Shown: positions 153 through 10,347 of the stretch, in pieces
How positions within the stretch are numbered: position 1 is the first letter of the stretch
Layout of the letters: every line of letters begins with the position of its first letter
DNA from: Bacteroidales bacterium
GTDB taxonomy: Bacteria; Bacteroidota; Bacteroidia; Bacteroidales; UBA932
Length of the DNA stretch: 33,380 bases
Direction of reading: 5' to 3'
NCBI GenBank assembly: GCA_017454335.1
Contig: JAFTDE010000040.1
Span: 1 to 33,380, forward strand
Notes under the pieces: model-generated
Told to the model about the DNA's origin: nothing
The model's database searches: none
Seen by the model: only the letters and a program-made list of their open reading frames with translations
Made by a program: the position numbers and the translations under genes

Positions 153-1211
153 TTACTTCCCCAGAATCTTGCTGTAATGGCAGTTCAGGACGTCGGTGCA
201 GGGGCCGTGCCAGTTGTGCATGCCGTTTCCGAGGCAGTCGCGCCAGACTTTGCAGTCCTTGCAGCGGCCGCGGCGGGTCCAGCGGCGGTCGCGGAAGGGC
301 TGGAAGCGGTCCTGCCAGACCTGGTAGAAGTTGTCCTGGTAGATGTTGCCCTGGCTGAAGGCGTCGCGGTCAATGTTGGGACAGGCGCAGATGCGCCCGT
401 CGATCAGCACGGAGGCGATGTTGATGCCGGCGTGGCAGAAATACGGTACGTCCCGCACCTTGTTCTCGAAGCGCCCCAGGTAGCCCTCGCAGCTGAACGT
501 GACCCGCAAGGGGCCGGAGGTGGCGCGTTTCCCGGCAATGAATTCCATCAGGGCCGTGAACTCCGCGTCCGACAGGTGCATCTCGGGATCGTCGGCGGCG
601 CGCCCGATGGGAATGATGGTAAAGATGCGCCACTGCCGTACGCCCGCCTGCTGCAGGAGATCGAAGAGCGCATCCAGTTCGCCGATATTCCGCCTGTTGA
701 TGCAGCTGACCACGTCGAAATTGAGCTGCGGGGCCGCGGCGGCCAGCGAAATCGCCCGCATCGCCCGGTCGAAACTCCCCGGACGGCCGCGCATCCAGTC
801 GTGCGACCCGGCCAGCCCGTCCAGGCTGACCGTCAGGGCGCCCATCCCGGCATCCAGCAGTTTCCGCTGCATCTCCCCATCGTAGAACCAACCGTTGGAG
901 ACGATGCCCCAGCTGGCTCCGCGCCCGTGCAGGGCGCGTCCGATTTCGCAGATGTCCGGGCGCAGCAGCGGTTCCCCGCCCGTCAGCACGATCGTGAACG
1001 GATTGGCCCTCTCCTGTGCGGGAATGGTATCGAAAGCCCGCAGGAAGTCCTCCAGGGGCATGTCCACATCGCGGCTCGCCGCAAAACAATCACTGCCGCA
1101 ATGGCGGCAGTGAAGGTTGCAGCGGGTGGTGCACTCCCAGAAGAGGTAGTTCAGTTCGTGCACCGCCGTCTCGTTGGCGCGGAAGGCACGGTGGAGCAGG
1201 CGGCCGATCAT
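153..1211 (-). CDS. Radical SAM/SPASM enzyme of the rSAM/lipoprotein system
   Basis: This 352-aa protein is a predicted cytoplasmic radical SAM maturase. The radical SAM cluster motif CxxxCxxC is C31, C35, C38 (CNLHCRHC), flanked by extra cysteines C27 and C42. The SAM-contacting GGEP motif lies at about 78-81. The C-terminal third is a SPASM domain, expected to bind auxiliary Fe-S clusters, with cysteines at 241, 259, 275, 277, 317, 320, 326, 338 and 344. Family knowledge: it matches the Bacteroidetes class described as 'radical SAM enzyme, rSAM/lipoprotein system' (TIGR04133), whose members sit beside a small lipoprotein. Here the ATG overlaps the stop of such a lipoprotein gene (ATGA), so translation is probably coupled. 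The natural inference is that it modifies that lipoprotein, but the reaction is unknown. Close relatives include peptide maturases and anaerobic sulfatase-maturating enzymes; no sulfatase is nearby. Confidence 0.88.
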   Translation of the reverse strand: MIGRLLHRAFRANETAVHELNYLFWECTTRCNLHCRHCGSDCFAASRDVDMPLEDFLRAFDTIPAQERANPFTIVLTGGEPLLRPDICEIGRALHGRGASWGIVSNGWFYDGEMQRKLLDAGMGALTVSLDGLAGSHDWMRGRPGSFDRAMRAISLAAAAPQLNFDVVSCINRRNIGELDALFDLLQQAGVRQWRIFTIIPIGRAADDPEMHLSDAEFTALMEFIAGKRATSGPLRVTFSCEGYLGRFENKVRDVPYFCHAGINIASVLIDGRICACPNIDRDAFSQGNIYQDNFYQVWQDRFQPFRDRRWTRRGRCKDCKVWRDCLGNGMHNWHGPCTDVLNCHYSKILGK

Positions 1212-1408
1212 TCGGGTGCGACCTCCGTCAGTTCCACTTCTCCCGCTCCGTCGGGTGTCGCGACGGCTTCTTCCTCGACCAGTTCCACCTCCTCTTCAAC
1301 CGGCAGTTCCGGATAATTGGCGGGACCTGTGCCGTAGCAGGCCTGGAAGATGAAGAGCATCGAGGTGAACGAAGCACCTCTCAGCACACGGCGGATCCAT
1401 TTTCTCAT
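1208..1408 (-). CDS. Small acidic putative lipoprotein, partner of the radical SAM enzyme
   Basis: This 66-aa product has an Arg/Lys-rich n-region (about residues 2-10), a hydrophobic stretch (about 12-21) and a lipobox-like FQAC with the lipidation Cys at 24. The -3 residue is Phe, a weak match to the usual Leu. The mature part begins CYGTGP and continues as a Pro/Glu/Val-rich acidic tail with no further Cys. Bacteroidetes 'radical SAM-associated putative lipoproteins' (TIGR04134) characteristically start CYGTP after the signal, and this agreement plus the ATGA overlap with the radical SAM gene is the basis for the call. It is shorter than many family members and seems to lack a folded domain. 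It lies 18 nt downstream of the SDR gene, probably in the same transcript. Substrate status is inferred, not shown. Confidence 0.75.
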   Translation of the reverse strand: MRKWIRRVLRGASFTSMLFIFQACYGTGPANYPELPVEEEVELVEEEAVATPDGAGEVELTEVAPE

Positions 1409-1426: not shown

Positions 1427-2197
1427 TTATACGCAGGTGTAGCCCCCGTCGACGGCGATGTTCTGGCCGTTGACATAGGTGCTCGCAGGCGAAGCGAGGA
1501 ACAGGGCGCAGGTGTCCAGTTCGCCGCTGCGGCCGTAGCGCTCGAGCGGAATGCTCCGCTTGGCGATGGCCTGGAAATACTCGCTGTCGAGGGTCTCGGT
1601 GGTGAGGTCCGTGTAGAAGTATCCCGGGCAGATGGAATTCACGGTTATGCCGTGCTTGCCCCACTCGGCGGCCAGGGCGCGGGTCAGGTTCACGACGCCG
1701 CCCTTGGCTGCGTGATAGGGCGAGCTGCCGCAGATCATGTTGCCGACCAGGCCATACATCGAAGCGATGTTGATGATGCGGCCGAATCCGGCCTTGATCA
1801 TCTCCTTGCCGAATTCGCGGGCGCAGCAGAACGTACCGAACAGGTCGATGTCCATCTCTTTCTTGAACTGCTCGTCCGTGATGTCCTCGGCGTTGGCGAC
1901 GGCACCGGTGCCGGCATTGTTCACCAGGATATCCACGCGGCCGAAAGCATCCATCGTGGCCTTGACGGCAGCCTTGACTTTCTCGGTATCGGTGATATCG
2001 CAGGCGACGCCGATGGCCTTGACGCCGAATTCGGCGGAAATCGCCTTGGCATTCTCTTCCAGAAGATTCTGCCTGCGGGCCAGCAGGACCAGGTTGGCTC
2101 CCTGGCTGGCGAACGCCTTGGCCATCTGCAGGCCCAGGCCGGTGGACGCGCCGGTTACGACGGCTACACGTCCGGTAAGATCAAAGTAGTTTTTCAT
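1427..2197 (-). CDS. Short-chain dehydrogenase/reductase (gluconate 5-dehydrogenase-like)
   Basis: This 256-aa classical SDR has a Rossmann dinucleotide motif TGASTGLG (15-22), NNAG (93-96) and the catalytic Ser146, Tyr161, Lys165 (YHAAK), so it should be an active NAD(P)-dependent oxidoreductase. The C-terminal region (a PGYFYTDL segment and a final VDGGYTCV) is typical of the gluconate 5-dehydrogenase / 3-oxoacyl-ACP reductase branch. Position in a unit behind a beta-L-arabinofuranosidase (22-nt gap) suggests a sugar or sugar-acid substrate, but the family is too broad to name one. Length is normal and the protein has no signal peptide, so it is cytoplasmic. Confidence 0.85.
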   Translation of the reverse strand: MKNYFDLTGRVAVVTGASTGLGLQMAKAFASQGANLVLLARRQNLLEENAKAISAEFGVKAIGVACDITDTEKVKAAVKATMDAFGRVDILVNNAGTGAVANAEDITDEQFKKEMDIDLFGTFCCAREFGKEMIKAGFGRIINIASMYGLVGNMICGSSPYHAAKGGVVNLTRALAAEWGKHGITVNSICPGYFYTDLTTETLDSEYFQAIAKRSIPLERYGRSGELDTCALFLASPASTYVNGQNIAVDGGYTCV

Positions 2198-2219: not shown

Positions 2220-4616
2220 TCATGGAATGAATCGGAGGTAATGGGTGGAAGCCCCGGTCAGGCTGTAATCCGGCAGGAAACGGTGGCCGCCGAAACGCAG
2301 CGCGTACAGTCCGTCCTCCCCGCAGCCCTCGGGATCGATCCCGTCCGCCAGGCTGTCCAGCGGGAACTCGGCGGCATCCCAGCTGTGGATGTCCGTCGCA
2401 GCCATCACCAGCGGCCCGTACATCAGGGCGCCCGCCCAGGCGGGGGTGAACGCCGCGGCCGGGTCGCCGGGAACGGCGGCGGTCTCCATCCGGTCGGGAC
2501 CGAAGTCCACATGCGGACCGAACGGCATGTCGATTTCGATCACATCCCCAGCGGACCACGTCCGGCGCGGGATTTCCACATACGAGCAGGGCCGGTACGT
2601 CCGGGCGACGCTGCGTCCGTTCAGCCGGACGTCGAAGCCTTCGCCGGCCCAGTACGGCACCCGCAGTTTCAGCGCGAAGCTGCCGCCGGAAACCCGGATG
2701 CGGCTGTGCTCCGCAGGCCAGGCGCATTCCTGTGTCAGGGTGACGCCCTTTTCCCGCCAGAGCGCCTCGGAAGGCAGGTACAGCCCGACCCAGACACAGT
2801 CGTCCGAGACGAACCAGGCGGCCTCCTGGTACTTGACATGGTTCTCCGCCCCGGTTCCGCCGCAGCAGGACGACTGGGGCGTGGGGTTGCCGAAGGGCTT
2901 GCGGGCGTCCAGCCCGACCGCATACTGGTAGGTGACGCCGTAATGCTCGGGATGCAGGGAACCGACGATCTGGTTGTACAGCACGCGCTCGTAGTAATCC
3001 ATGTAACGGGCGTCATCGGGATCGAAACAGTTCAGATCCTTGCTGAGTTTCGCCAGGTTGTAGGCGCAGCAGGTCTCATTGAGGTTCGGGTCCGGTACGG
3101 TCTGGCCGCCCCGGCCCCGCGACACGTTGGTGTTCATGCTGAGTATCTGCGTATAGGGTTCCCGGAACATCTCGCCGTTGCCCACCCCGCCGGTGGCATA
3201 GGCGTAGCGGCCCTGGACCAGGTTCCAGAAATTGCGGGCGATGTCGTACAGGCGCGCGTCCGGAAGGGTCCGGTAGGCTCGCAGCGCGCCGGTGATCATC
3301 GGGATGTGCTGGTTGGCGTGGCGGCCGCGGATGTCGTCGATGTTGCGCGACAGGGGGCCGAAGAAAGCCGGCGCCTCGAAATACCCGGCCGCCTCGATCA
3401 GGCGGTCCCGGTCCGCGGGATCCGCCGAGAGCTCCGCCAGGCGGGAGAGGGATTCGGCCATGCCGCCCACCTCGCCGGCGATGTACATGTTCCACATCTC
3501 ATAGCGGTTACCCGGCCGGCTGCGGCGGGACTCCTGCGTTCCCTCCCCGTCCGAGAAAGTCCGGTAATGCAGGCGGTTCCAGACCCACAGGCCCATGTCC
3601 CGGGCGATCAGCAGGGCCTTGTCCGCGATGGACGGATCGTCCACGTTGCAGGCGATGTCGATCAGGCCGGCCAGTTGTTTGTGGATGGTATAGTACGGCG
3701 CCCAGACCCACTGGTCGTTGTTGTACGGACGGTATGCCTCGACCAGCACGGGATGCTGGGCCGGGATGGCGTTCAGGTAGCCGTACCCGTATCGGGTCCA
3801 GTCCCGCTTGTAGACGTCGAAATCCGCCCAGGAACCGCCCAGGGCGGAGAGTTCCGCCTCGGGAGCGAGGTCCCGGGCTTCCCGGTAACGGCCCAGCGAA
3901 TCGGACCAGACGAAGGTGCGTTCCTGGCAGATGCGCAGCTCGTCCACCATCGTGCGCAGCCGGGTCCGGATGCTGTCCCGCAGGGCGGGATCGCCGCAGC
4001 AGGCGTAGGCGAAGGCCATGGCGGACATGTAGTGTCCGCTGCCGTGGCCCTTGAGCTTGGTCGTCGGAGAGTCCCAGCCCGTCGAGACGGGATAACCCTC
4101 CGTGTCGAGTCCGTAGGTGTCGCGGTAATTGTACAGTTGCTGCCGCACGTCCAGGCCGAGCAGCTGGCGGATATCGAGTTCACGGTTGGAAGTCAGGCGG
4201 TTGTCTCCGGTCAGGCGCACATCCCCCAGCGGCAGCGGCCGGGCGACGGGCCTGGCGGGACGGGCTGCGGCACGGCGCGTGACCCGTACCTGTGCCCGGA
4301 CGGGGTAGCCCAGGGGCGTCGCGGCGTCTCCGGTGACGTATCCCGGAACGCTATAGCGGGTTCCGGCCGGATGCAGGGCGGCGTCCGCCAGGAAGGCTTC
4401 CATCTCCCGGTCCGAAATCTCCCAGACGGCCTGCCGCCAGGCGGAAGAGCCGTCCGCATAATGGACAAAAACCTGGTAAGGAAGCGCCGGAACCGTCCCG
4501 ACGGGAGCATCGACCCGGACCGGATCCACCCGGGAGATCACCCTGTTTCCGGCCCGGACGGGCAGGAACAGAACCAAGGTGCACACCAGTATGGACAACA
4601 GTCTGCGCATAGACAT
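2220..4616 (-). CDS. GH127/GH146-family beta-L-arabinofuranosidase, secreted
   Basis: This 798-aa protein begins with a signal peptide (about 1-22, ending VRAG) and is probably periplasmic. Residues about 30-115 look like a bacterial Ig-like domain. From about 130 it follows the DUF1680 / GH127 alpha/alpha-barrel. The zinc-thiolate site is visible as Glu514-x-Cys516 (ETCC) and the Cys584-Cys585 pair (SSCCGGTG), matching the Glu338/Cys340 and Cys417/Cys418 pattern of HypBA1, where Cys417 is the nucleophile. Glu482 in GNGEMF is the likely acid/base. A C-terminal beta-sandwich follows. It would release terminal beta-L-arabinofuranose from plant glycans such as extensin, pectic side chains or arabinans; GH127 and GH146 cannot be separated by eye. 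ATG codons at 4616 and 4610 both fit. Its gene heads a unit with the SDR, lipoprotein and radical SAM genes. Confidence 0.88.
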   Translation of the reverse strand: MSMRRLLSILVCTLVLFLPVRAGNRVISRVDPVRVDAPVGTVPALPYQVFVHYADGSSAWRQAVWEISDREMEAFLADAALHPAGTRYSVPGYVTGDAATPLGYPVRAQVRVTRRAAARPARPVARPLPLGDVRLTGDNRLTSNRELDIRQLLGLDVRQQLYNYRDTYGLDTEGYPVSTGWDSPTTKLKGHGSGHYMSAMAFAYACCGDPALRDSIRTRLRTMVDELRICQERTFVWSDSLGRYREARDLAPEAELSALGGSWADFDVYKRDWTRYGYGYLNAIPAQHPVLVEAYRPYNNDQWVWAPYYTIHKQLAGLIDIACNVDDPSIADKALLIARDMGLWVWNRLHYRTFSDGEGTQESRRSRPGNRYEMWNMYIAGEVGGMAESLSRLAELSADPADRDRLIEAAGYFEAPAFFGPLSRNIDDIRGRHANQHIPMITGALRAYRTLPDARLYDIARNFWNLVQGRYAYATGGVGNGEMFREPYTQILSMNTNVSRGRGGQTVPDPNLNETCCAYNLAKLSKDLNCFDPDDARYMDYYERVLYNQIVGSLHPEHYGVTYQYAVGLDARKPFGNPTPQSSCCGGTGAENHVKYQEAAWFVSDDCVWVGLYLPSEALWREKGVTLTQECAWPAEHSRIRVSGGSFALKLRVPYWAGEGFDVRLNGRSVARTYRPCSYVEIPRRTWSAGDVIEIDMPFGPHVDFGPDRMETAAVPGDPAAAFTPAWAGALMYGPLVMAATDIHSWDAAEFPLDSLADGIDPEGCGEDGLYALRFGGHRFLPDYSLTGASTHYLRFIP

Positions 4617-4625
4617 CTATTCATA

Positions 4626-4633
4626 CAAAGATA
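4626..4633 (-). promoter_or_regulatory. Bacteroidetes -7 box for the GH127 gene
   Basis: Read on the minus strand this is TATCTTTG, an exact match to TAnnTTTG. The expected start of transcription is about 4619, leaving only a few nucleotides before the first ATG (4616) or about 10 before the second (4610). No clear -33 TTTG is visible at the usual spacing. Confidence 0.7.
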
Positions 4634-4647
4634 GGAAATCATTTTCT

Positions 4648-4655
4648 TATCTTTG
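4648..4655 (+). promoter_or_regulatory. Bacteroidetes -7 box for the GH31 gene
   Basis: TATCTTTG on the plus strand, an exact TAnnTTTG match, lies 23 nt before the GH31 ATG, giving a leader of roughly 17 nt. It forms a perfect 8-bp inverted repeat with the minus-strand box at 4626-4633, with 14 bp between, so the two promoters are symmetric and overlap in footprint. Confidence 0.72.
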
Positions 4656-4678
4656 CATGAAAACCAGTACGAACATCG

Positions 4679-7483
4679 ATGAAAAAAGCGATTCTTGCCC
4701 TGCTGACTACCGTGGCACTGTGCGGTGCCTGCACGCGCAGCATCACCTTCCCGGGGGCGGACGAAGGCGCCGTCCGCATTACCGCCATCACCGACGACAT
4801 CATCCATGTCGAGGCCGTGCCCGCCGGGGCGTCCTTCTCCCGCACCCCCTCGCTGGCCGTCATCCGGAACCACCGCCCCTACGTCCGTTTCCGCCATCGC
4901 GAGGAAGCGGATGCCTTCGTGCTGGAAACGGGCGCCCTGCGCCTGCGCGTCGCCAAATCCGACGGATCGGTCAGCTACTACCGGCTGGAGGACGACAGCC
5001 TGATCGCGGCGGAAGAAGCCCGCAGTTTCTCCCCCGTCACGGTGGAAGGCCGGCAGGCCTGGACCGTCCGCCAGACCTTCCTCCCCCAGGACGAAGGATT
5101 CTACGGACTGGGCCAGCACCAGGCGGACGAGTGGGACTACAAGGGCCGCAACGAGGAACTGTACCAGTACAACACCAAGATCAGCGTCCCCTTCGTGGTG
5201 TCGTCGCGCCGCTACGGCATCCTCTGGGACAGCTACAGCCTCTGCCGCTGGGGCGATCCGCGTCCCTACGCCTCGCTGGGCGAAGTCTTCACCCTGCGGG
5301 ACAAGGACGGGGTCGAAGGCGCCCTGACCGGCACCTACGTACCCGCCCGGGGCGAAACGCTGGTCCGGCGGGAAACGGCCCTGGAGCAGGAATTCCTGCA
5401 TGTGCCGGACTGCGACTACGTGCTGAACGCCCCGCGCAGCTTCCGCTTCAGCGGATCGCACGTGACCTTCGAGGGCACGCTGGAGCCCCGGGAATCCGGG
5501 CTGTTCCATTTCTACCTCTATTACGCCGGATACACGCAGGTCTTCCTGGACGGCGAGGCGGTGACCCCCGAGATCTGGCGCACGGCCTGGAACCCGAACG
5601 GACGCAAATTCGAAGTCGAGCTGCAGGAAGGCCGGAGCGTTCCCATCCGCATCGAATGGCGGCCCGACGGCGGCACCAGCTACTGCGCCCTGCGGGTGCT
5701 CTCCCCCGTTCCCGAGGCCGATCAGGCCCGGATGTCCTGGTGGGGCGAGATGCAGGACCAGCTGGATTATTATTTCGTCGGCGGGGAGACCCTGGACGAG
5801 GTGATCGGCGGCTACCGCACCCTGACGGGCAAGGCCCCGGTCATGCCGAAATGGGCCATGGGATACTGGCAGAGCCGTGAACGCTACACCAACCAGGACG
5901 AACTGGTCGCCACCTTCGAGGAGTTCCGCGAACGCGGCATCCCCATCGACAACATCGTGCAGGACTGGCAGTACTGGCCCGCCGACCAGTGGGGCAGCCA
6001 TGCGTTCGAAGCCTCCCGCTACCCCGATCCCAAGGGCATGGTGGACCGCATCCACGAACTGGACGGCCGCTTCATGATCAGCGTCTGGCCCAAGTTCTAC
6101 ACCAACACGGAACATTTCCGCGAACTGGATGACCAGGGATGGATCTATCCCGCGAGCGTACGGGACAGCGTCGAGGACTGGCTGGGGCACCAGCAGGGAT
6201 TTTATGACGCCTATGCGCCCGGGGCCCGCGAGCTGTTCTGGCAGCAGATGCAGGACCACCTGTACCCGACCGGCGTGGACGCCTGGTGGATGGACGCCAG
6301 CGAGCCGAACATCCACGACTGCACCGACATGGACTACCGCAAGGAGCTGTGCGGCCCGACGGCGCTGGGCCCTTCGACCCAGTACTTCAACGCCTACGCC
6401 CTGGTGAACGCCCAGGCCATTTACGAAGGCCAGCGCGGCACCCGGGACAACCGGCGCGTGTTCCTGCTGACCCGCAACGGATTCGCCGGGCTGCAGCGCT
6501 ATTCCACCGCCAGCTGGAGCGGGGACATCGGCACGCGCTGGGAAGACATGAAGGCCCAGATCAGCGCCGGGCTGAACTATTCGATCTCCGGCATCCCCTT
6601 CTGGGGCCAGGACATCGGCGGATTCAGCGTCGAGAACCGCTTCGCCGCCGCGCAGCGCCTCTACGACCGCACCGGAGAGGTCAACGCAGACCTCGAAGAA
6701 TGGCGGGAAATGCAGGCCCGGTGGCACCAGTGGGGCGTTTTCTGCCCGCTGTACCGCGCCCACGGGCAGTGGCCTTATCGCGAACCCTGGAACATCGCGC
6801 CGGAGGGCGATCCCGCCTACCAGAGCATCCTGGAGAGCGACCAGACCCGCTACATCCTGATGCCGTACATCTACACGATGGCCGCGCGGGTGCACTTTGA
6901 CGACTACACCATCATGCGGCCGCTGGTGATGGATTTCACCGATGATGCGCGCGCCCGCGCCATCAGCGACGAATTCCTGTTCGGGGACGCGCTGCTGGTC
7001 TGTCCGGTCTATACCTACCAGGCCCGCAACCGCACGGTTTACCTGCCCCAGGGAAGCGACTGGTACGACGCCTACGACAACTACCGCTGCATCCGCGGCG
7101 GCACACAACTGGACGCGCCCGCTCCCTACGGGCACATCCCGCTGTACTGGCGCAGCGGCCAGATCGTCGTCAGCGGATCCCTGATCCAGAGCACGGCAGA
7201 CCCGCAGACCGACTACACCCTGCGCATTTTCAGCGGGGCCGACGCCCACTACCGCCTGTACGATGACGACGGAACGGATTACGATTATGAAAAGGGCGAT
7301 TACCGCTGGATCCCGATGCACTGGGACGAGGCCGCCCGCGCCCTGCACTTCGATGCGAGCGAAGGCAGCTGGCCCGGCATGCCCGAAAAGTACACCTTCA
7401 CCGTCCTGCTGGTCACCCCGGACGGCACTTCCCTCCCGCAGATCGTCAGCTACGACGGACGGGCGCAGAGCCTGTATTTCTAG
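4679..7483 (+). CDS. GH31 alpha-xylosidase-type glycosidase with PA14 insert, lipoprotein
   Basis: This 934-aa protein has a lipoprotein signal with the likely lipidated Cys at 18 (LCGAC). After the N-terminal beta-sandwich, a PA14-like domain is inserted at about 225-345 (FYLYYAGYTQVFLDG is characteristic). The GH31 barrel follows. The nucleophile is Asp539 in WWMDASEP and the acid/base is Asp616 in WSGDIG. A C-terminal DUF5110-type beta domain ends the protein. The PA14 insert is known from xyloglucan-active alpha-xylosidases such as CjXyl31A and Bacteroides ovatus BoGH31A, so alpha-xylosidase on xylo-oligosaccharides is the best guess; alpha-glucosidase remains possible. It is transcribed away from the GH127 gene and its stop codon shares the tetranucleotide CTAG with the stop of the convergent GH106 gene. 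Confidence 0.9.
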   Translation: MKKAILALLTTVALCGACTRSITFPGADEGAVRITAITDDIIHVEAVPAGASFSRTPSLAVIRNHRPYVRFRHREEADAFVLETGALRLRVAKSDGSVSYYRLEDDSLIAAEEARSFSPVTVEGRQAWTVRQTFLPQDEGFYGLGQHQADEWDYKGRNEELYQYNTKISVPFVVSSRRYGILWDSYSLCRWGDPRPYASLGEVFTLRDKDGVEGALTGTYVPARGETLVRRETALEQEFLHVPDCDYVLNAPRSFRFSGSHVTFEGTLEPRESGLFHFYLYYAGYTQVFLDGEAVTPEIWRTAWNPNGRKFEVELQEGRSVPIRIEWRPDGGTSYCALRVLSPVPEADQARMSWWGEMQDQLDYYFVGGETLDEVIGGYRTLTGKAPVMPKWAMGYWQSRERYTNQDELVATFEEFRERGIPIDNIVQDWQYWPADQWGSHAFEASRYPDPKGMVDRIHELDGRFMISVWPKFYTNTEHFRELDDQGWIYPASVRDSVEDWLGHQQGFYDAYAPGARELFWQQMQDHLYPTGVDAWWMDASEPNIHDCTDMDYRKELCGPTALGPSTQYFNAYALVNAQAIYEGQRGTRDNRRVFLLTRNGFAGLQRYSTASWSGDIGTRWEDMKAQISAGLNYSISGIPFWGQDIGGFSVENRFAAAQRLYDRTGEVNADLEEWREMQARWHQWGVFCPLYRAHGQWPYREPWNIAPEGDPAYQSILESDQTRYILMPYIYTMAARVHFDDYTIMRPLVMDFTDDARARAISDEFLFGDALLVCPVYTYQARNRTVYLPQGSDWYDAYDNYRCIRGGTQLDAPAPYGHIPLYWRSGQIVVSGSLIQSTADPQTDYTLRIFSGADAHYRLYDDDGTDYDYEKGDYRWIPMHWDEAARALHFDASEGSWPGMPEKYTFTVLLVTPDGTSLPQIVSYDGRAQSLYF

Positions 7484-10347
7484 TCGGCTGTCTGGGCGGC
7501 AAGCGGCGCGACGCTGACCGGTCCGACCAGGCCGGACGGCAGGGGCTGCCAGCCGGCGGCGGTGAACCAGCCGTCACTGCCGCGGTCCTGCGGCAGGCGC
7601 GCCTGGATGTTGGCGTTGTAGAAGATGCGCCAGAGCTGTCCCTCCCGGTCCATCCACGAAATCCGGTTCGCCATCAGGTTCGATACGCGGATGCACAGCC
7701 GACCGCCACGGGCCGCCTGCGCGGGTGTCAGCACCAGGGTGAAGGGGCGCGTGAACAAGGTTCCCAGCGGCTCGCCGTCCAGCGTCACGGACGCACTGCA
7801 GTCCACCTCTCCCAGATCCAGCAGCACCGGGTTTTCCCCCGGCTGCGGCGGCAGGGTCGTCACATACTCCGCCGTTCCGGAGAAGCGCGCGTATTCCGGA
7901 CCCCAGGCCGTCCAGGACTCGAGCCGGGAAACGCTGCGCTCCGCGGGCAGGGTCGGGCCGCCCTCCACAAAGGACACGGTCCAGGGGCCGGGCAGCGGGG
8001 TCGGAGCGGCGCAAACATCATAGAAGGGATAGGGTTCGGAAGCGCCGACCGCGGGGGCGTCGCCCGTGCGGACCAGCAGGGAGCCGCCGGGCTGCAAGGC
8101 CATCCAGACTTCCGTCCCGTCCGCCCCGTGGCGGATCTGCGCCGCGCCGATCTTCCCGCTCATCGGATCATACAGGTCCGCCGCAGCCGCCGCGACATCC
8201 AGCGGAATCCATCCGCGGACCGCTTCGCGCGAGGAATTGCGGACAAAATACACCACTCCCCCGTCATCGAGACGGCGGCTGATGCACTGCAGGCCCAGGT
8301 CGTACATCTTCTCCCGGCTCACGCCCACCGCATCCAGCAGCTGGTCCAGGTTGTCCCCGACCAGGATGCGGCCGCGGCCCGTCCGCGCCAGCCGGAAATC
8401 CCCCAGCCGGGCGAAATTCAGCGATGAAGTCAGCCGCTCCAGGGTCTTGCGGCCGGCGTCCAGTCGGCCCAGTCCGGGCACATCCTGCGGCAGTCCGCCT
8501 TCGATCAGGATGGTCGCGCCGCGGCGCGCCAGGCGTACGATCTGGGCGAAGGTTTCCGGAAGGATCTCCTGGCAGCGGGGCAGCACCAGGGCCTGGTACG
8601 AAGCCCCGTGGCCGTTCACGATGCGGCCGTCCCGGACGTCCAGGTTGTTCACGATCATCCGGTCGGTGACATAGTCCCAGGTATATCCGCGCCGGTACAG
8701 ATCCGAGGCGTAACGCCCGATGGCGCTGGTCTCGGCCGTGGTCTGGGACATGTGGTACAGGAGTTCGCGGCCGCGCTCGTTCAGCAGGTCCGTCGCATCG
8801 AAGAACAACAGCAGGTCGTTGTCGGGCTGGCCCGCCTGCAGGAAACTCTGGCAGCGGGCGACGTACTCGTTCAGCGCGGCGAAGTCCTTCCAGTTGGGAT
8901 TCGTGGGCTGGAAGTGCACGGCGGCATAGAACAGCCAGCCGGGCCAGGGCGCGTCGTCCGGCGACAGGCAGGTGCCGTGATAGAAAATATGGTTCACCCC
9001 GGCGAGGAAATACACGTCCAGGGCATTCTTGACATCGTCCAGCGTCGAGAGGAAATGCTCGTTCAGCCAGGTCGCCGATTCGGACGAGACCAGCAGATGC
9101 GCCGTCACGTGCGCTGCAGACGAGGCGGTCTTCATGCCCACGATGGAACGGCCTTCCGTCTCGGGGACATCGCTGACGGCATACAGGTCCAGGATATTCG
9201 CCGGCGACCCGTGGGCCTGGTTGCGTATGCCCTTGCCCTGGGCGGCCGCCCATTTCTGCCACAGCGTGGAATAATTCTCCAGCAGCAGTTCGCCGATGGT
9301 GGTGCGGTAGTCGAACAGCACGCGGCGTGCGGTCTCCGCATCGTCGCCGATGCCCAGCAGGTCCGGCATGTGCGCGCGCAGGTCGTATCCGCGGCGCGCA
9401 CGGAATTCATCGAAGAAGTCCTCGGTCCAGTCCGAACTGCCCCGGGCGTCGTCCACCTCGTAGGAATCGTTGAAATAATAGCGGATGTGGCTGACGTCGC
9501 GGCCCTGGAAGGCCTCGTCGAAACGTTCGAGGTAGTTGGTGATCGTCCTGGCGGAGAAATGGTCGATCACGTCGCCTTCCCCGCCCGGGCCGGCCCGCTC
9601 GACCATCTTGCCGTGCCAGCCGAGGAACAGGGCGCAGACCGTCCAGTCCCCCTCCGGCGCCGTCCAGTCCAGCACGCCATCCTCCACCCGGTCCGTCAGG
9701 TCCAGGTACTGCCCGTCCGGGCCGTTGGCCGTGACGGCCAGCAGCGGCAGCGGGACCGGATAGCGGACCTGCTCGAAGGCGATCTGCTGCAGGCTGTCAT
9801 TCTCCGTGATCGGGAAAGCGACTTCGTCGATGGAGCGGCTCAGGCCCAGCGTGCGCACCATGGGTTCCTGGATGTATTCGACGGGCTCGGTCACCCTTTC
9901 CCCGCCGTGCAGGAAATACTCCTTGTGCGCCAGGTAGCGGCAGGCGTCCTCCGGGTCCACCCAGGGACCGCCGAAAGGCCAGCCCGAAGCGTTGGCCAGG
10001 TCGACGCCGAGGTCCCGGCTGGCCGCCTCTTTCAGTGTAAAGCAGAAGAGGTCCATCCACTCGTCCGACAGGTAGTCGCGATAACGGTCCTCCCAGCCCT
10101 TCGCACCGTAGATCGTCGTCACCTCCATGCCGCCCAGGCCCGCCTGGGAATAGGCATCCAGCATGGAAACGATGTCCGATTCCTGCACGGCGCTGCCCGG
10201 CCACCACCAGCGCGTCCACGGGCGCGTCTGGGAGCTGATTTCGGGCCACTGGAGATCGAAAGACTGCGATGTTTGCGCCTGGCCGCAGGAGATGGCCAGC
10301 AGGAGGATCGGGACAAGCCGGAAAAGGGAAAGGTTCTTTCTGTTCAT
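7480..10347 (-). CDS. GH106-like alpha-L-rhamnosidase, lipoprotein
   Basis: This 955-aa protein has a lipoprotein signal with lipidation Cys at 21 (LLAISC). It starts its mature part with the RPWTRWWWPGSAV segment typical of GH106-like glycosyl hydrolases, and has the conserved DVIDHFSA segment and a long TIM-barrel-like catalytic region. The C-terminal part (about 790-945) resembles a galactose-binding-type beta-sandwich (LLDLGEVDCSASVTLDGEPLG). GH106 enzymes remove alpha-L-rhamnose from pectic glycans (rhamnogalacturonan II) and related polymers. I could not assign catalytic glutamates with certainty, so substrate is provisional. The ATG at 10347 is preceded by a good -7 box. It converges with the GH31 gene with a 4-nt overlap. 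Confidence 0.78.
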   Translation of the reverse strand: MNRKNLSLFRLVPILLLAISCGQAQTSQSFDLQWPEISSQTRPWTRWWWPGSAVQESDIVSMLDAYSQAGLGGMEVTTIYGAKGWEDRYRDYLSDEWMDLFCFTLKEAASRDLGVDLANASGWPFGGPWVDPEDACRYLAHKEYFLHGGERVTEPVEYIQEPMVRTLGLSRSIDEVAFPITENDSLQQIAFEQVRYPVPLPLLAVTANGPDGQYLDLTDRVEDGVLDWTAPEGDWTVCALFLGWHGKMVERAGPGGEGDVIDHFSARTITNYLERFDEAFQGRDVSHIRYYFNDSYEVDDARGSSDWTEDFFDEFRARRGYDLRAHMPDLLGIGDDAETARRVLFDYRTTIGELLLENYSTLWQKWAAAQGKGIRNQAHGSPANILDLYAVSDVPETEGRSIVGMKTASSAAHVTAHLLVSSESATWLNEHFLSTLDDVKNALDVYFLAGVNHIFYHGTCLSPDDAPWPGWLFYAAVHFQPTNPNWKDFAALNEYVARCQSFLQAGQPDNDLLLFFDATDLLNERGRELLYHMSQTTAETSAIGRYASDLYRRGYTWDYVTDRMIVNNLDVRDGRIVNGHGASYQALVLPRCQEILPETFAQIVRLARRGATILIEGGLPQDVPGLGRLDAGRKTLERLTSSLNFARLGDFRLARTGRGRILVGDNLDQLLDAVGVSREKMYDLGLQCISRRLDDGGVVYFVRNSSREAVRGWIPLDVAAAAADLYDPMSGKIGAAQIRHGADGTEVWMALQPGGSLLVRTGDAPAVGASEPYPFYDVCAAPTPLPGPWTVSFVEGGPTLPAERSVSRLESWTAWGPEYARFSGTAEYVTTLPPQPGENPVLLDLGEVDCSASVTLDGEPLGTLFTRPFTLVLTPAQAARGGRLCIRVSNLMANRISWMDREGQLWRIFYNANIQARLPQDRGSDGWFTAAGWQPLPSGLVGPVSVAPLAAQTAD

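Follow-up and report, generated by a model that had tools for sequence, protein, structure and literature searches.

A TIGR04133 radical SAM/SPASM enzyme and its lipoprotein partner in a Bacteroidales bacterium: a proposed Tyr-Gly-directed modification of prolipoproteins

The present analysis concerns two overlapping genes at the start of a 33,380-nucleotide stretch of DNA from a Bacteroidales bacterium (GenBank assembly GCA_017454335.1, contig JAFTDE010000040.1, positions 1 to 33,380; this whole stretch is referred to as the window). Both lie on the minus strand, the first (1208..1408) encoding a prolipoprotein of 66 amino acids (aa), the proposed substrate, and the second (153..1211) a radical S-adenosylmethionine (SAM)/SPASM enzyme of 352 aa for which a role as lipoprotein splicease is proposed. 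The lipoprotein gene starts with the ATG at 1408 and stops with the TGA at 1210-1208, while the ATG of the enzyme gene lies at 1211-1209, the two genes sharing the bases ATGA (1208..1211, minus strand) in a stop/start overlap that suggests translational coupling. These reading frames, their strand and the overlap, as given in an original prediction made from the DNA alone, are borne out by the open reading frame (ORF) calls and by the bases at the junction. Relatives repeatedly show near-zero stop-to-start offsets (among 102 distinct same-strand pairs, 28 with +4, which corresponds to ATGA, 25 with +1 and 13 with 0), which argues that the overlap is not a product of chance. The source genome (2.16 Mb, 78.8% complete) contains TIGR04133 in a single copy.

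The window enzyme scores 458.6 bits against TIGR04133 (rSAM_w_lipo), for which the cut-off is 425, and Pfam returns Radical_SAM (E 2.7e-18) and SPASM (E 8e-08), so that the family and the radical SAM architecture with C-terminal SPASM cysteines have both been correctly predicted. The radical SAM motif Cys31-x3-Cys35-x2-Cys38 (1098..1121, minus strand) is invariant in 59 aligned members of the family, as are Gly39, Ser40 and Cys42 (1086-1088, minus strand) directly past it. The SPASM region, defined by the Pfam match and the family alignment, extends from Cys259 to Cys344 (180..437, minus strand) and includes cysteines 259, 277, 317, 320, 326 and 344, which together with residues 31, 35, 38, 42, 170 and 241 make up the cysteines that are invariant across the 59 members. 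Two extra cysteines had been singled out as notable: this holds for Cys42, but not for Cys27, which is replaced by Ser or Ile in two of 15 sequences, while Cys170 and Cys241 are to be added as further invariant extra cysteines. By inspection, the enzyme has no signal peptide.

The lipoprotein exhibits a positively charged N-terminus, a hydrophobic stretch, the lipobox FQA-Cys24, the residues Tyr25-Gly26-Thr-Gly-Pro, in agreement with the CYGTGP start that had been predicted, and an acidic tail. Its signal peptide (1340..1408, minus strand), whose end is conserved in relatives, may double as a recognition leader; it is followed by C24-Y25-G26 (1331..1339, minus strand), an X-Y-G motif in which X is the lipobox cysteine and which represents the proposed modification site, and by the variable tail from T27 to E66 (1211..1330, minus strand). 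Inspection reveals the features of a bacterial lipoprotein, i.e., a signal peptide and a lipobox with MRKWIRRVLRGASFTSMLFIFQA ahead of the cysteine, and the protein would be lipidated and placed in the outer membrane. The mature part of 43 aa contains 13 Asp/Glu, no Lys or Arg, and the lipobox cysteine as its only cysteine. Searches of the lipoprotein against NCBIfam and Pfam returned nothing at E<=1. This includes TIGR04134 (150 positions, cut-off 39.8 bits), to which the lipoprotein had been expected to belong and which also found no match in the genome at E<=0.001; by profile search, the lipoprotein is thus not a member of that family.

TIGR04133 was detected in 44 of the 198 Bacteroidales genomes sampled (E<=1e-80), in 41 of these above the cut-off, and 578 stretches of the genome collection encode a relative of the enzyme, the best 80 of the 578 being used. 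The family also occurs on plasmid records, including that of pTS1, a megaplasmid of the spirochaete Treponema saccharophilum, where the pair comprises a CYGMPENY lipoprotein (L116), which suggests transfer of the pair between phyla. From 151 scanned loci, 147 with an enzyme and, following removal of identical enzymes, 140 were retained; L119, L160, L161 and L169, in which a regular expression returned no enzyme, were left out of the counts, three of them (L119, L160 and L169) nonetheless possessing Tyr-Gly (YG) lipoproteins. The partner was defined as the adjacent same-strand lipoprotein-like ORF, picked by a rule that is blind to the motif. The neighbourhood survey that the original prediction had called for thus yielded an adjacent lipoprotein-like ORF at 117 of the 140 distinct TIGR04133 loci. 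Among the 23 loci for which the rule gave no partner, a relaxed, motif-conditioned look identified a YG partner in 17, located on the same strand further off or filtered out, lacking a lipobox, or on the opposite strand (several being divergent). With this relaxed look included, 130 of the 140 loci have a YG partner.

The mature part of 112 of the 117 partners contains YG, as compared to 35.2 expected from shuffled sequences and 33 with the reversed GY, while YG-x(1,2)-P is present in 102 partners (shuffle expectation 3.64; reversed P-x(1,2)-GY in eight). In 78 of the 117 the motif is C-Y-G and includes the lipobox cysteine. Across 120 motif instances, position X is occupied by Cys (78), Glu (22), Met (10), Ala (3), Lys (3), Leu (2), Val (1) or Asn (1), and the position +2 after Tyr likewise varies (Thr 68, Val 12, Ala 10, Pro 8, Ser 8, Met 5, Cys 4, Gln 2, Ile 2, Gly 1). 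Because the residue ahead of YG is the lipobox cysteine in the window and in those 78 partners, one might consider a thioether, of the kind found in sactipeptides and ranthipeptides, or some other modification of this cysteine itself. Such a modification is very improbable, given that 42 of the 120 instances have a residue other than cysteine at X (Glu, Met, Ala, Lys, Leu, Val or Asn) and that the thiol of the lipobox cysteine is needed for diacylglyceryl transfer. Moreover, sacti- and ranthipeptides are defined by several core cysteines that donate thioethers, of which the mature window lipoprotein offers one. Non-adjacent lipoprotein-like ORFs of the same loci (n=97) contain YG in 37 and YG-x(1,2)-P in 20 cases; as 17 of these 20 read as further small partners of like kind, this set does not constitute a clean background.

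Conservation within the partners centres on the motif. The short CYG class comprises 27 distinct lipoproteins, all of which have Cys, Tyr and Gly and 21 of which have Pro at +5; their signal peptide ends with Ala at -1 (27 of 27), Gln at -2 (21) and Phe at -5 (22), while columns from +6 onwards mostly show 8-18% pairwise identity. Asp/Glu make up 29% of the mature tails in a set of 34 short ORFs that includes two without YG. An alignment of 36 mostly longer partners shows no variation at Cys and Gly, and conservation of 90% or above at Tyr and at a single Gly within the body. Of the longer partners, three were scanned and show a resemblance to carboxypeptidase regulatory-like or Ig-like domains, in each case with scores below the Pfam cut-offs. 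Scaffolds accordingly differ, and include the acidic tail, a carboxypeptidase-regulatory-like body, a linker with a C-terminal motif, and tandem motifs. At other loci the motif lies some ten residues past the lipobox (EYGVPHSDF) or is present in two to three copies per protein, and in short linker-bearing lipoproteins it is C-terminal (MYGVPPARF, KYGIPNNTY). A 64-aa lipoprotein at locus L020 carries CYGPAP at the lipobox and EYGVP further on; with both motif types in one protein, it is a link between the two putative substrate classes. At L172, L174, L177 and L178, several small linker-bearing lipoproteins are located near the enzyme, with up to three motifs each and [KM]-Y-G-x-P often near the C-terminus. 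Downstream of the enzyme at L175 and L180, a secreted partner of Sec-type appearance and without a lipobox has the motif where signal peptidase would probably cleave (AQ-YGAP and AQ-YGSW, respectively).

A tree built from the 112 enzymes whose partner contains YG shows seven changes of the label CYG/other and 13 of the label short/long, and the sister enzymes L031 and L055 are accompanied by partners of 118 and 61 aa, respectively, both with CYG at the lipobox. Scaffolds have thus been exchanged under a retained motif, and as body, length and motif position vary while Tyr-Gly is kept, the pattern is that of an enzyme target rather than of a fold. That YG might serve lipoprotein sorting in general was considered and rejected, since the motif is also found at sites remote from the lipid anchor as well as in proteins of the Sec type.

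On the basis of these sequence patterns, the lipoprotein is very probably the substrate of the TIGR04133 enzyme. It is unlikely that it would instead bind, sense or anchor the enzyme or its product, with YG as a binding determinant. Such a role would be in keeping with the profile scores of AhbD and NirJ (133 and 115 bits, as against 137 bits for the best match), enzymes that act on tetrapyrroles, but it is at odds with the shifting of the motif between positions and scaffolds, with its tandem copies, with the probable separation of an enzyme without a signal peptide from a lipoprotein that has one, and with short lipoproteins that contain little beyond the lipobox-CYG and an acidic tail. The motif evidence gives good support to the earlier proposal of an enzyme acting on the lipoprotein, while no support was found for the suggestion that the enzyme is anchored through it.

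The DNA pattern for FQ[AS]CYG is present in 21 of the 198 genomes, 14 of which belong to the 44 that have the enzyme and seven to the 154 that lack it (Fisher p 4e-6), and the reversed control pattern in eight genomes at ten places. The sites of G402 and G365 were left out of the site inspection. In six of the seven pattern genomes without the enzyme, no lipoprotein is found at the site (L199, L201, L205, L209, L210, L212 and L213). In the seventh, G057, which has no intact enzyme, the site is a genuine CYGTPQDF lipoprotein, behind which a decayed enzyme gene has left a remnant: past the lipoprotein at 3389 (L198, G057:C80), pieces of the TIGR04133 N-terminus and of the SPASM end lie in different frames, the core has been lost, and the radical SAM cysteines are lost or changed. 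TIGR04134 matches were obtained in 36 of the 198 genomes, 30 of which have TIGR04133, and in the other six, including G057, all matches fall below the TIGR04134 cut-off.

The best non-self NCBIfam match of the window enzyme is TIGR04103 (137 bits). A Nostoc enzyme of this family (853 bits) adjoins a Nif11 precursor that ends in ALYGLPPELF and a 71-aa ORF. PlpX, the family of which is given as IPR026482, together with PlpY excises tyramine at Xaa-Tyr-Gly and rejoins the backbone as an alpha-ketoamide (PMC11002830), and XYG is able to direct several such events within one precursor (PMC10373908). According to PMC10533398, PlpXY works without a leader, a ten-residue tag can suffice, and splice tags have been built on PIRP-LYGLPI or PIRP-GYGLPI; the same source credits Scott et al. 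2022 with 939 predicted splicease systems. X-Y-G-x-P beside the Nostoc enzyme and in the PlpXY tags indicates that the motif occurs in partners of both enzyme groups.

Residues were compared among 29 TIGR04133 enzymes, seven enzymes of the TIGR04103/TIGR03913 side and five outgroups (MftC, NirJ, TIGR04053, PqqE and an AhbD-like enzyme). Gly39 and Gly243 are found in all seven of the TIGR04103/TIGR03913 side and in none of the outgroups (Gly243 being present in 27 of the 29 TIGR04133 enzymes), Ser40 and Trp194 in seven and one, respectively, and Ala205 and Arg253 in six and one, while HCGS is shared by all seven. Profile alignment by hhalign of TIGR04133 with the TIGR04103 side (six sequences) gave E 1.9e-52 over 335 columns, as compared to E 6.8e-42 over 298 columns with a mixed MftC/NirJ/TIGR04053/PqqE alignment (four sequences). 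In the tree, TIGR04133 forms one clade (97/99), as does the TIGR04103 side (95/90). This kinship is compatible with a shared chemistry, without being proof of it. Among solved structures no close relative was found, the best match being BlsE for the window enzyme (E 2.8e-22, radical SAM core) and for the family profile (E 1.6e-23), and SkfB for the Nostoc enzyme (E 1.2e-24). In Bacteroidota, TIGR04103 was detected in one of 296 genomes (E<=1e-100), below the cut-off and in a protein that scores better as TIGR03913, and AhbD in one of 148 (E<=1e-70), again below the cut-off. A plasmid of Agathobacter rectalis (L118) contains an unannotated 35-aa ORF (3812-3919, plus strand) that ends in GPVMYGTGVRM and lies just upstream of a radical SAM gene at 4001, which encodes a further relative on the TIGR04103/TIGR03913 side; it is a candidate X-Y-G precursor of that enzyme.

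These data are best explained if the TIGR04133 family acts on prolipoproteins, as spliceases or, at the minimum, as modifiers directed to Tyr-Gly. Both the X-Y-G motif and the relatives of the enzyme point to tyramine excision, which we consider somewhat more likely than not; the original prediction, which knew of no product for the pair, is sharpened to this extent. It is less likely, if by no means negligible, that the enzyme modifies Tyr-Gly by a different chemistry, such as a tyrosine crosslink (cyclophane/triceptide-like), tyrosine oxidation, side-chain cleavage or a reaction at the alpha-carbon. The YG evidence fits any Tyr-Gly-directed reaction, and the related SPASM enzymes MftC and PqqE perform other tyrosine chemistry. 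A triceptide or cyclophane core consists of three residues, i.e., an aromatic residue, x and a fitting partner residue. Against these other reactions, no conserved third residue is available as a general crosslink partner: what the 36 mostly longer partners share is Cys, Gly, a Tyr with few exceptions and a single body Gly, and what the short ones share is C-Y-G and a frequent Pro. That X-Y-G-x-P also adjoins a TIGR04103 enzyme and recurs in PlpXY tags likewise speaks against them.

A number of observations nevertheless weigh against the splicease reading. As regards the partners, ten of the 140 loci have no YG partner, relaxed look included (L003, L005, L028, L038, L042, L051, L069, L080, L171 and L193, of which L080 and L171 sit at contig edges), and the picks at L037 and L070, which are probably wrong, are still among the 112. 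The nearest ORF lacks YG in five of 117 cases, with Y-A-V-P in two, C-Y-A in one and an unrelated appearance in two; at one of these loci, L189, the second neighbour is a CYG lipoprotein. Plain YG is expected by chance in approximately 30% of such proteins, and the weight therefore rests on YGxP, CYG and position. Among the 14 genomes with both enzyme and pattern, the G357 site is not a lipoprotein and the G414 site does not correspond to any known partner. Of ten DUF1843-type peptides located next to enzymes of the TIGR03913 side, six contain YG, two YA and two YM.

As regards the enzyme, the 137 bits against TIGR04103, which we take to be the same family as the PlpX family IPR026482, fall far short of its cut-off of 725, and AhbD (heme b synthase) follows four bits behind. 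The 'GGC'/'AGC' SPASM cysteine of the TIGR04103 side is absent from TIGR04133, in which the nearby His332 is invariant; given this missing cysteine, an auxiliary cluster with an open site is possible. Pro81 (GGEP) is found in all 29 TIGR04133 enzymes and all five outgroups but in one of seven of the TIGR04103 side, and Arg204 in all 29, in four of five outgroups and in none of the seven. The altered SPASM set and these outgroup-like residues may signify an altered chemistry, and the tree leaves the joining of TIGR04133 to the TIGR04103/TIGR03913 group unsettled, the PqqE, MftC, NirJ and TIGR04053 branches being long, which again leaves room for the other Tyr-Gly chemistries. No PlpY-like gene was recognized among the ORF-listed neighbours, where no search with models of PlpY or the RiPP (ribosomally synthesized and post-translationally modified peptide) recognition element was made and where the window contig ends 152 bases past the enzyme. 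The window precursor has a lipoprotein signal peptide in place of a Nif11/NHLP leader, for which there was no NCBIfam match. Finally, a second PlpXY tag type, AVAAGYGVVFP, lacks x-P (PMC10533398). Of 16 tag variants placed in FtsZ, only two were accepted, and neither of the two was of the short LYGLPI type (PMC10533398), which implies that flanks matter and that the presence of the motif is not sufficient for a substrate.

For the splicease reading, we infer an order of events relative to export and lipidation, and a biological role, as follows. The cytosolic enzyme would meet the unfolded prolipoprotein before Sec export and bind around X-Tyr-Gly(-x-Pro) and its flanks without a separate RiPP leader; in the CYG class it might also read the conserved signal-peptide end FQA. 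It would then remove tyramine, with export and lipidation of the product to follow. In the window pair, it is the lipobox cysteine that would be modified, placing the ketoamide directly at the lipid-bearing N-terminus, ahead of the acidic tail. The repeated replacement of short by long partners, and vice versa, on the enzyme tree suggests that the ketoamide rather than the fold would be the functional part. It is accordingly conceivable, though we lean slightly against it, that the mature protein is a lipid anchor with a ketoamide electrophile at its very N-terminus and a disposable body. Such an electrophile in the envelope could act, for example, as a protease trap. Spliceotide products have been reported as protease inhibitors (PMC11117315, PMC10373908), which makes a membrane-anchored protease trap a testable role; as the ketoamide of the CYG class would sit at the membrane, a role other than protease inhibition is equally possible. 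By analogy with work on surface export (PMC5080379, PMC6222051), the acidic tail might constitute a surface export signal, an idea advanced as a possibility only.

No function has been named for the radical SAM family TIGR04133. If the proposal is correct, the occurrence of ribosomal beta-amino acids would extend beyond small natural products to the envelope lipoproteins of bacteria from gut and rumen, where many would lie at the site of lipid attachment, and the pair would represent an unrecognized route by which envelope lipoproteins are chemically edited. The predicted signature, a mass change of -135.08 Da per motif together with ketoamide reactivity, would be detectable in lipoproteins by mass spectrometry; the value published for tyramine excision is -135.0757 Da (C8H9NO; PMC10533398). 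Within the literature searched, no publication names TIGR04133, TIGR04134 or a radical SAM-associated lipoprotein, although an earlier one may exist elsewhere, and among the matches listed no paper deals with splicease and lipoprotein together. A graspetide study treats, in the part available, other SPASM enzymes in ATP-grasp loci and does not name TIGR04133 there.

The gene that ends 18 nucleotides upstream of the lipoprotein gene (1427-2197, minus strand) encodes a short-chain dehydrogenase/reductase (SDR) oxidoreductase and was considered as a part of the system. It was rejected, since tblastn with the SDR protein against the fetched loci (E<=1e-20) matched just the window locus itself and one other at 31% identity, and it is hence not a conserved neighbour of the pair. 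Long antisense ORFs across the locus (e.g., 177-1316, plus strand) were judged to be shadow ORFs in GC-rich DNA. Glycoside hydrolase (GH) genes (GH127-like, GH31 and GH106-like; 2220-10347) adjoin the pair.

When compared with known systems, the window enzyme is a member of TIGR04133, and an adjacent lipoprotein is the usual context of this family in the fetched loci; as the family name carries no function, it is the function and the target motif that the present analysis proposes. TIGR04134 lipoproteins occupy the same genomic position beside TIGR04133, and their Treponema and Parabacteroides members likewise contain YG, whereas the window lipoprotein, at 66 aa, lacks the body of the 150-position model. 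TIGR03913, the GDL-motif/DUF1843 maturase, is a related enzyme with an N-terminal [LMP]-Y-G in six of ten partner peptides; it differs in that these partners have no signal peptide by inspection and are YA or YM in the remaining four, and in that its enzymes are longer (474-516 aa). DUF1843-type peptides at L115, L121, L125 and L129 share an N-terminal [LMP]-Y-(G/A/M), and on account of this common motif such peptides may be targets of a related chemistry.

PlpX-type spliceases differ from the window system in acting on Nif11/NHLP precursors rather than on a prolipoprotein and in their PlpY, which was not recognized among the ORF-listed neighbours of the pair. At the residue level, invariant Cys42, Cys170 and Cys241, the one missing SPASM cysteine, and GGEP and Arg204 in place of GGEA and Asn set TIGR04133 apart from the TIGR04103 side. 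PlpX-type enzymes are likewise radical SAM/SPASM proteins with an X-Y-G target, which precedes x-P both in the precursor from Nostoc and in one PlpXY tag type and which is present in the window partner as C24-Y25-G26, and HCGS, Trp194 and Gly243 are common to both. It is therefore proposed that the pair works like a splicease system rather than being a member of TIGR04103.

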